A stretch of DNA of 64,000 nucleotides from assembly GCF_003177035.1 (NCBI RefSeq), contig NZ_CP029488.1:496001-560000 (forward strand), given 5' to 3'. The notes under the pieces are model-generated. The model ran no database searches. It was not told the origin of the DNA and saw nothing but the letters and a program-made list of their open reading frames with translations. This document shows positions 50,680 through 52,377 of this stretch, piece after piece; within the stretch, counting starts at the first letter, position 1, and each line of letters starts with the position of its first letter. Source of the DNA: Salinisphaera sp. LB1 (GTDB lineage: Bacteria > Pseudomonadota > Gammaproteobacteria > Nevskiales > Salinisphaeraceae). Made by a program: the position numbers and the translations under genes.

Positions 50680-51174
50680 TCAGCGACAGCTCGCCGGCAG
50701 GTCATCGGCCGGGACCCCCGCATTCACGCTATCGTGCTCCGACGGCGCCGTGCAGCGCCAGGTGATGGTGCCCGAACCGAAGTCGGCGGTCAGGTACACG
50801 ACCTTGTCGTCGATCGCCCCGCCGGCATATCGAATATAAATGCCGGGCGCGTCCGGGTTGTTGTGCCACCAGATTCGCTTGACGTAGCGTCCGCTTGCGG
50901 CGCCGTCCGTACCGCTCGGCATGTTCAGTTCCGCCAGTACGCCATTCCAGGAACCGCTTGTGGGCAGATGGCCATGCATGCTGTAGTACTCGGCCACGGC
51001 CTGCTTGAGCGGCTGGGCGAGCACCAGCCCCTCGGTGATTTTGGCCCGTGTTTCGTAATGGCGATACAAAGGCAGCGCAATGGACGCCAGCACGCCGATG
51101 ATCGCCACCACGATCATGAGCTCGACCAGCGTAAAGCCGGTCTGGCCCCGCCGGTCGGCCGATGCGTCCTGCAT
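50680..51174 (-). CDS. pilA: Type IV major pilin (PilA-like)
   Basis: 164 aa from the ATG at 51174. The class-III leader ends with the prepilin peptidase site [19 protein letters not shown]; Phe+1 and Glu+5 are present. The long N-terminal helix continues [20 protein letters not shown]. The globular head has the pilin pattern [20 protein letters not shown] and a C-terminal disulfide-loop cysteine pair (TWRC ... PASCR, 21 residues apart). This should be the fibre subunit assembled by the PilMNOPQ machinery encoded 40 kb away. The frame is open upstream into the repeat element but without a leader. Convergent with hslR. Confidence 0.9.
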
Positions 51175-51400
51175 AGTCTGTCCCGTATCCAATCCGAGGC
51201 GGTACTTGTGCCGGCTGCCGCACACGCTGTCAAAACCGGGGCGGCGACGCGGCCGCGGGCACACCGCTGCAATCGCCGCTCCGTCTGGTATTTCACGGGG
51301 TTGCGGATGCCGATCGGGCGGCGCGCCCGAGCACCACGAGCCGATAACCGCTCGGTGGCGCGCACTCATATGCCCCGTGTTCCCGTTGGCGAGTATCGGG

Positions 51401-51671
51401 TAGGGCCTGTTGCTGTTTCGTGTGAGCGCCGCGTTGGAGACCGCAAATCGTGTCCGGCAAGGCGCGAGTCTGGGTCGTGGCGTGCCACGACCCAGACTCG
51501 CAACGCCGCAGGGCTCGATTTGCGGCCCAACCCGAAGGGACAAGCGCTGTTTTGCGGCAATCCAGCGTTGCAGCACGCTTGCGCAGAGTGGACTGCGCGG
51601 CGCGCACTACGCCTCGTCTTGCCGCAAAAAAGCGCTTGGCGCGGACTCGCACGAAACAGCAACAGGCCCTA
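51401..51671. mobile_element. MITE-like palindromic intergenic element
   Basis: About 271 bp with perfect 22-bp terminal inverted repeats: left end begins TAGGGCCTGTTGC (51401-51422) and right end finishes GCAACAGGCCCTA (51650-51671). The outermost bases TA on both sides could be a duplicated TA target, as made by IS630/Tc1-type transposases. Inside: an 18-bp perfect hairpin (51464-51481 with 51484-51501), CCGCAAATCG (51441-51450) with CGATTTGCGG (51516-51525), and a 19-bp arm with one mismatch (51542-51560 with 51619-51637). No convincing ORF or transposase, so non-autonomous. It lies between the pilA start and the ribosome site of the next gene. Confidence 0.7.
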
Positions 51672-51705
51672 GGATGGGCCCACTAATCGACAATGAGGAT
51701 TGTTC

Positions 51706-52377
51706 ATGGGCAAACAGATCGAATTCACCCGACCCGACGGCGCCACCGCCCCCGGTTTCTACGCCGAACCCGACGGCCGGCCGAACGCGCCCGGCATCGT
51801 GGTGATCCAGGAATGGTGGGGCCTCAACGACCAGATCAAGCGCATCGGCCAGCAATGGACCGACGCCGGCTATCGCGTGCTGATTCCTGATCTGTATCGC
51901 GGCGAGAAGGCGCTGGACGCGGCCGAAGCCGAGCACAAGATGGACGACCTGGATTTTTCCGATGCCGCCACCCAGGACGTGCGCGGCGCGCTCCAGTATC
52001 TCAAGCAGGACAGCGCCTCGGTCGGCGTGATCGGTTTCTGCATGGGTGGCGTGCTCGCGGTGCTGGCGGCCATGCATGTGCCCGAGACCGATGTGGCAGT
52101 CTCCTGGTACGGCATTCCGCCCGAGGAGGCCGGCGATGCCAGCGCCATCGACGTACCGTTGCAATGTCATTTCGCCACGCAGGATACGTTCTTCCCGATC
52201 GAACAGGCCGATGCCTTCGAAAAGAAGCTCGAGGCCGGCAACGTCACGCATGAGTGCTATCGCTACGAAGCCCAGCATGCCTTCGGCAACGAGGAATGGG
52301 ATTACTACGATCCCGAAGCCAGCAAGCTCGCCTGGCAACGCAGCATGGCGTTCTTCGAGCGTCATCTGAAAGGCTGA
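51706..52377 (+). CDS. Dienelactone hydrolase family protein
   Basis: Alpha/beta-hydrolase of 223 aa. ATG 51706 follows GAGGA by 6 nt. The catalytic triad is Cys in VGVIGFCMGGVLAV, Asp in CHFATQDTFFP, and His in YEAQHAFGNEE; the conserved Glu is in VVIQEWWGLNDQI. These are the signatures of the carboxymethylenebutenolidase (ClcD/TcbE) family, although chromosomal members often act on unknown esters and no aromatic-degradation genes are near. The MITE-like element ends 34 nt upstream of the start, so its insertion may have changed this gene's promoter. A strong terminator follows. Confidence 0.92.
   Translation: MGKQIEFTRPDGATAPGFYAEPDGRPNAPGIVVIQEWWGLNDQIKRIGQQWTDAGYRVLIPDLYRGEKALDAAEAEHKMDDLDFSDAATQDVRGALQYLKQDSASVGVIGFCMGGVLAVLAAMHVPETDVAVSWYGIPPEEAGDASAIDVPLQCHFATQDTFFPIEQADAFEKKLEAGNVTHECYRYEAQHAFGNEEWDYYDPEASKLAWQRSMAFFERHLKG

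Follow-up and report, generated by a model that had tools for sequence, protein, structure and literature searches.

Short non-autonomous elements of the MITE kind are usually taken as deletion remnants of insertion sequences, with an interior of little consequence, and the insertion sequences of the IS5 family (PF13340 together with PF01609) prefer a YTAR target. Prokaryotic MITEs are described as short, bounded by terminal inverted repeats (TIRs) and a target duplication, and assumed to be mobilised in trans (PMC10969869). Among individual families, the Tn3-derived TIMEs of Pseudomonas are non-autonomous elements of about 262 bp that are predicted to fold stably and keep conserved stretches in their core; they possess Tn3-type 38-bp ends and duplications of 5-6 bp and usually occur as a single copy (PMC4133298). 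In Pseudomonas fluorescens, the R0, R2, R178 and R200 families are described along with other intergenic repeats; two families share insertion-sequence ends and were called MITE-like in the excerpted text (PMC2718517).

The element described here occupies positions 51401-51671 (271 bp including the TA at both ends, without an assigned strand) of the window, by which we mean the whole stretch of 64,000 nt of the Salinisphaera sp. LB1 genome that was analysed. It is like prokaryotic MITEs in being short, TIR-bounded and flanked by a target duplication, but a fixed-length double-hairpin interior common to orders with differing ends does not appear in the excerpted description (PMC10969869). It resembles the TIMEs in size, non-autonomy, conserved core and stable fold, whereas its IS5-type ends, its TA duplication and its tens of copies set it apart from them as the excerpt presents them (PMC4133298). 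The excerpted list of R families runs from 50 to 352 bp with none at 268-272 bp, which is a separation by description and not by sequence (PMC2718517), and nothing in the available parts of PMC10969869, PMC2718517, PMC4133298 and PMC4853749 fits size, ends and layout together. Literature searches, including searches with strings of the element's sequence, returned no description, ISfinder and subscription papers being outside their scope, such that an earlier description is possible; a described family was likewise not found in Rfam. With the insertion sequences of the IS5 family the element has in common the ends GGGCSTGTTG... and the TA flanks, but those insertion sequences carry a transposase, whereas the element has no transposase gene and, by eye, no like interior; the matching insertion sequences presumably belong to an IS427-like group. 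Our preferred reading, to which we give a probability of roughly 70%, is that of an IS5-type-ended MITE that is moved in trans and whose folded DNA aids its spread. The moving would be done by the IS5-family transposase of such an insertion sequence, which would recognise the ends of the non-autonomous element and insert it at YTAR with duplication of the TA.

The left TA (51401-51402) and the right TA (51670-51671) are the target duplication, represented by a single TA in the empty site of a congener, Salinisphaera sp. Q1T1-3. Repeat search and end comparison place the left TIR, an IS5-type end beginning with GGGCCTGTTGCTGTTTCGTG, at 51403-51426 on the plus strand and the right TIR at 51646-51669 on the minus strand; counted with the TA at both extremes, the two arms (51401-51426 and 51646-51671) are 26 nt long and 96% identical, the outer 22 positions being perfect. 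Hairpin A, the left half-unit (51433-51530, plus strand), was delimited by alignment, covariation and DNA folding and matches R1, a covariance model of the left half. The alignment shows conserved CAAGGCGCG in its 5' arm (51458-51466, plus strand) and conserved GCAACGCCGCAGGGC in its 3' arm (51500-51514, plus strand), the latter being part of a search pattern and its conservation hence partly due to the way in which the elements were picked. Inverted-repeat search located a perfect 18-bp apical hairpin of A at 51464-51501 (strand-neutral; arms 51464-51481 and 51484-51501) and an 18-nt pair at 83% identity (51441-51458 and 51508-51525). The centre of the element, according to relatives and alignment, is a mini-hairpin CCC-GAA-GGG (51531-51539, plus strand), beyond which lies hairpin B (51541-51638, minus strand), the right half-unit and an inverted relative of hairpin A that R1 matches at E 1.3e-7, with a 20-nt inverted pair at 95% identity (51541-51560 and 51619-51638). 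The predicted fold of the element as single-stranded DNA has an energy of -118.3 kcal/mol, where 200 dinucleotide shuffles give -63.3 (sd 3.6); this corresponds to z -15.45, and 0/200 shuffles did equally well. An earlier sequence-only reading of this stretch had described most of these palindromes, and they proved real: the perfect 22-bp TIRs bounded by TA and the perfect 18-bp hairpin were recovered, its 19-bp pair with one mismatch emerged as the 20-nt pair at 95%, its 10-bp pair lies within the 18-nt pair at 83%, and the fold statistics agree with its remark that almost the whole element folds back on itself. It had also placed the element between the promoter sides of a pilin and a hydrolase gene, which agrees with the neighbours, the left one being a leftward ORF that looks pilin-like by eye in translation and the right one a rightward ORF with its ATG at 51706, the putative hydrolase of that reading. 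A transposase gene is absent from the 271 bp, which only mechanical ORFs cross.

In the LB1 genome (one contig, 4.14 Mb) the element was found at 40 places, 36 of which span at least 260 of the 271 query positions, and the TIR core occurs 57 times in forward and 52 times in reverse orientation, against 0 for a reversed-pattern control. Element matches were also present in 13/13 Salinisphaera congeners and in 29 of the 61 genomes of a wider set, LB1 included. The hydrolase region was matched in eight of the 14 genus genomes, and its upstream sequence was read at seven congener loci, one of which is a clean empty site, the only locus so read: in Q1T1-3 (G001) a pilin-like gene and the hydrolase flank, recognised by eye, enclose a single TA and no element, with GGTTAGGATG versus GGG-TA-element-TA-GGATG in the window. 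An 11/14 match to a core motif lies beside this empty site; we take it as chance because other loci show such matches at unrelated places. In S. hydrothermalis, a truncated element of reverse orientation, whose ends are of the GAGGTTTC type, stops to the left of the hydrolase ATG at the junction used in the window, and a full copy lies about 0.9 kb upstream. The full element was not found in the 460 nt upstream of the hydrolase at the other five of the seven loci. One of these five, in G002, has a pilin-like gene and a lone TAGGGTCTGTT in the intergenic region, about 150 nt left of the hydrolase match and possibly a remnant end, and in the four remaining congeners the sequence adjoining the hydrolase differs.

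Judged by the marks of a MITE, the block has TIRs, a short target duplication, many dispersed copies, an empty site and no internal transposase gene, and congeners, as well as the distantly related class genome G181, though not LB1 itself, have an autonomous element with such ends. It is almost certainly a mobile non-autonomous element of this kind. The sequence-only reading had proposed a non-autonomous mobile element with TA duplication and had suggested looking for multiple genomic copies and for empty sites in relatives; the 40 places in LB1 and the single TA of Q1T1-3 bear this out, and none of the three outcomes that it had named as telling against its proposal (a single copy, no empty site, no covariation) was what we found. 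The LB1 genome further contains two much shorter elements, of 88 and 170 bp, which have these ends and are flanked by TA left and right, at 2098475-2098562 and 768184-768353 (L064:376-463 and L067:385-554).

A survey for ends like TAGGGNCTGTT (at most two changes) and sizes of 255-315 bp gathered 175 elements, namely 35 from LB1, 15 from relatives, 86 from a genome-contig collection, 38 from class or phylum genomes and one viral. Among these, 142 measure 266-274 bp and 135 measure 268-272 bp. The interior consists of two hairpins of about 100 nt around the central CCC-GAA-GGG, and in 23/23 hand-chosen loci R1 matches both halves, in opposite orientations and with a spacing of about 99 nt; the element is an inverted pair of half-units. 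A set of 94 elements with script-assigned ends contains 67 of 266-274 bp, and the linker CAACCCGAAGGGAC begins at the centre, 127-129 nt in from the left end, in 62 of the 94, some of the rest having ends that look misplaced and some belonging to other end types. Two loci (L053:1461-1728 and L058:1399-1669) have the central mini-hairpin inverted, CCCTTCGGG replacing CCCGAAGGG, and the remainder keeps its orientation.

Relatives in other genera, collected by similarity to the window copy, have the same layout with differing ends (TAGGGCCTGTTAACACTA, TAGGGTCTGTTGACC, TAGGAGCCTATCCGTGA, TAAGGAAACACTGATC and others). A two-motif pattern of the interior found 111 stretches in the genome-contig collection, and since its elements were found by exact pattern, conservation of the two motifs is partly built in. 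The 80 of these 111 that are listed come from Gammaproteobacteria, apart from one in an unresolved Pseudomonadota record, and include Salinisphaera, Solimonas, Stutzerimonas, Pseudomonas, Azotobacter, Halomonas, Vreelandella, Marinobacterium and Chromatiales. R1 matches 94 of 369 sampled class genomes (73/271 genera) and 78 of 398 sampled phylum genomes (40/213 genera), the matches outside the class falling mostly in one family (f211), but in more than one. The interior is conserved across genera and beyond the class. The element also occurs on other replicons: a viral contig (IMGVR_UViG_2811995032_000003 of IMG/VR) holds one of 269 bp whose ends resemble those seen in Azotobacter, and a Stutzerimonas copy used as query matched five plasmid records, two from Azotobacter and one each from Pseudomonas aeruginosa, Halomonas and Citrobacter (partial), with no listed feature beneath the match in a gene table that is incomplete. 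With one Stutzerimonas copy as query, blastn found nothing in phages or in the genomes of E. coli. The inverted half-units can fold into two long hairpins round the mini-hairpin, giving cross-shaped DNA of near-fixed length, and the interior does not look like an insertion-sequence leftover.

With regard to the ends, the element very probably carries those of the IS5 type. An insertion sequence of about 859 bp in the congener G007 has the ends TAGGGCGTGTTGCCGTTTC and an open transposase frame, and its 249-aa protein matches PF13340 (82.6 bits) and PF01609 (69.1 bits), which identifies an IS5-family transposase. Its end is identical to the window end at 15 of 17 bases (2 differ) and to the commonest end in LB1, GGGCCTGTTGCCGTTTC, at 16 of 17 (1 differs). 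Relatives of the transposase at 65-67% protein identity occur in S. hydrothermalis (G006) and in Q1T1-3, with ends GGGCGTGTTGAGGTTTC or similar; in the former, the insertion-sequence ends read TAGGGCGTGTTGAGGTTTC, one of three transposase frames is free of stops, and a MITE (L031) bears the same GAGGTTTC ends. The distant genome G181 has an 807-bp insertion sequence with GGGCGTGTTAACACTAAT and a MITE with GGGCCTGTTAACACTATC. By these sequence comparisons, the ends resemble those of IS5-family insertion sequences in some relatives, and by eye no likeness showed between the interiors of insertion sequence and MITE. In S. hydrothermalis and G045, a further insertion sequence of the IS5 type, whose ends resemble GGCTGTGTCGTCACGAGAT, sits precisely at the CTAG border of such MITEs (L137:1483-2319 and L135:1483-2315), as if MITE edges offered its target.

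The transposase models searched were PF13340, PF01609, Y1_Tnp and rve. Searches with the congeners' transposase (E 1e-15) and with PF13340 (1e-6) matched nothing in the LB1 genome, whose copies therefore look orphaned. A candidate autonomous copy in LB1, marked by a TIR pair at 870678/872901, was rejected, for the pair encloses ordinary-looking ORFs and none of the five PF01609 genes of this genome has paired ends of the MITE kind. Over the 369 class genomes, PF13340 accompanies the core no more often than chance would give: 16 of the 94 genomes with the core have it (odds ratio 1.45, p 0.29). In the 15 genomes with core and PF13340 that were examined, end pairs were readable in five (G181, G335, G380, G282 and G150), and those of G181 alone resemble MITE ends. 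Since co-occurrence does not exceed chance and one in five readable end pairs is alike, a partner transposase is likely for some genomes and only putative for most.

TA stands at both ends in 114 of the 175 elements, and 320 of 349 ends have a pyrimidine (C or T) just outside it, giving a YTAR target. The sequence-only reading had taken the ends and the TA boundary to fit a non-autonomous relative of IS630/Tc1; the TA duplication alone speaks for this, but, by the transposase models named above, insertion sequences bounded in this way carry an enzyme of the IS5 family, and insertion is at YTAR; that origin has become very improbable. Because the element begins with G after the TA, insertion into a TAG or TAA stop restores TAG. 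At 89 of 350 ends, defined by a junction TAG, at least 900 nt of flank and an open frame of at least 450 nt, the longest frame running in meets the junction TAG 59 times, where one third would be expected (p 2.6e-10, related loci not being independent), the remaining frames accounting for 20 and 10. A transposase-like ORF (by eye) near 872.9 kb of the LB1 genome (L059:3402-4418) ends in a TAG stop that the border of a lone TIR completes. The junction at stop codons and the strong hairpins would also suit an element retained by the host at the ends of genes, whether as terminator, as insulator or as nucleoid site. However, such placement can follow from the YTAR target and the removal of gene-breaking insertions, copies decay, and the seven congener hydrolase loci comprise one empty site, one truncated element and five without a full element (460 nt); a role for the host is improbable, slightly more so than the two alternatives discussed below.

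Another possibility is that a Y1 (HUH) transposase of the REP-associated kind, acting on hairpins of single-stranded DNA, moves the element and that the IS5-type ends are secondary. Y1_Tnp matches 73 of 94 core-bearing against 143 of 275 other class genomes (odds ratio 3.2, p 1e-5), and the ratio is 2.8 and 3.9 when the genomes are split by presence of rve, a search that covered 312 of the 369 class genomes, the class and phylum sets being samples. A likeness between the stem motif and the REP of E. coli is conceivable. On the other hand, 21 of the 94 core-bearing genomes have no Y1_Tnp match, the association statistic ignores genome size and kinship, rve itself gives an odds ratio of 1.8 (p 0.05), and the ends carry IS5-type repeats with TA. 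Lagging-strand insertion was considered and dropped: with the origin at about 1.6-1.8 Mb and the terminus at about 3.4 Mb by GC skew, the LB1 copies split 22:14 between lagging and leading side, four near origin or terminus being left out, which is no clear bias. We regard a Y1 origin of the movement as unlikely, and an IS5-family transposase acting in trans remains the preferred agent.

Pairing in the stems was assessed in alignments of length-filtered elements (266-274 bp for the genome-contig collection, 266-272 bp for later additions), sequences with N and one locus (L183) being dropped from the 43-element alignment. In these 43 non-redundant elements, the 102 assigned pairs comprise 3875 Watson-Crick, 106 G·T, 153 A·C and 225 other cells. 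The left-half covariation score is 0.346 against 0.095 when shuffled (0/500 as high), and with slid partners it is at most 0.078. The extra nested stems, which had been thought more than a simple MITE needs, are thus kept with strong covariation. Within one genome, among the 30 most similar of the 40 LB1 places (mean identity 0.89), 312 of 3263 pair cells are broken and 72 are changed on both sides. Individual copies decay after insertion and pairing is kept between families, for which the simplest reading is selection on copies that are still moving; the shape seems to be selected for spreading. Templated repair of one arm from the other was rejected as the cause of pairing, as many single breaks and few double changes are seen among the LB1 copies, which lends no support to rapid correction.

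The mismatches bear on whether the structure is one of RNA or DNA. On the plus strand, G·T and A·C stand at 84:135 in 31 elements below 80% identity (p 0.0007) and at 165:225 in 66 elements (p 0.003), and reading the minus strand swaps these ratios to an excess of G-U. By helix, the 66 elements give 52:89 for the ends, 51:26 for hairpin A and 62:110 for hairpin B. The two hairpins thus favour opposite strands, which is compatible with their being inverted relatives of each other. Whichever strand is read, both kinds of mismatch are frequent, and neither strand comes close to lacking the non-wobble type. As a control, a weak one, 16 tRNAs of the same loci gave 25:0 in ARAGORN-marked stems and 4:1 in acceptor stems by position. 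Because the mismatches fit no single RNA strand well, the pattern favours a structure at the DNA level, although the excess of A-C over G-T is not predicted by pure DNA selection. The earlier suggestion of a selected RNA or DNA structure stands insofar as the stems covary, and with the weak control the mismatches tilt the choice to DNA.

The interior could nevertheless act as structured RNA, either a small RNA or an element within a 3' UTR, with a function of its own or for the host, which the MITE spreads. The very strong folding and covariation would suit it, as would the many copies directly behind a stop codon, which would be transcribed (59/89 ends), and the minus-strand count of 135 G-U to 84 A-C. 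However, both mismatch types are common on either strand, in the 66 elements the two hairpins favour opposite strands where a single RNA should favour one, and the LB1 copies break pairs freely. Rfam gave no family at gathering score in 17 loci and the window copy, nor anything near gathering in a scan of the window, and a consensus scan of 51101-51900 found no sigma-70-like promoter. We consider a structured RNA unlikely, if somewhat less so than the Y1 alternative.

Under the preferred reading of a trans-moved MITE, folded DNA, either as a cruciform or as hairpins on single strands, may help the element spread; it might, for instance, shape the transposition complex or be the form acted on. 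That the hairpins are kept at the DNA level for proliferation we hold at about even odds. A bolder version, which we put forward tentatively and judge rather doubtful, is that a single portable DNA structure, made of two inverted half-units that form a cross of constant length, was carried into a large part of the Pseudomonadota by different IS5-type ends, its fold being what the mobility machinery needs. If this were true, there would be a class of MITEs defined by DNA shape and not by descent from one insertion sequence, and the fold would be needed as extruded or single-stranded DNA.

The finding of interest is the fixed-length double-hairpin core that is common across the phylum. One interior design recurs over much of the phylum while ends differ and copies rot, and this makes it testable whether the shape of MITE-internal DNA drives spread. 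As the family is common (94/369 sampled class genomes), it matters for how gene ends and repeats are annotated in Pseudomonas, Azotobacter and Halomonas, among others. Unrelated to the element, the first 10 kb of the LB1 genome contain a match to the Rfam ALIL pseudoknot (RF01497, 93.4 bits; L314:6430-6548).
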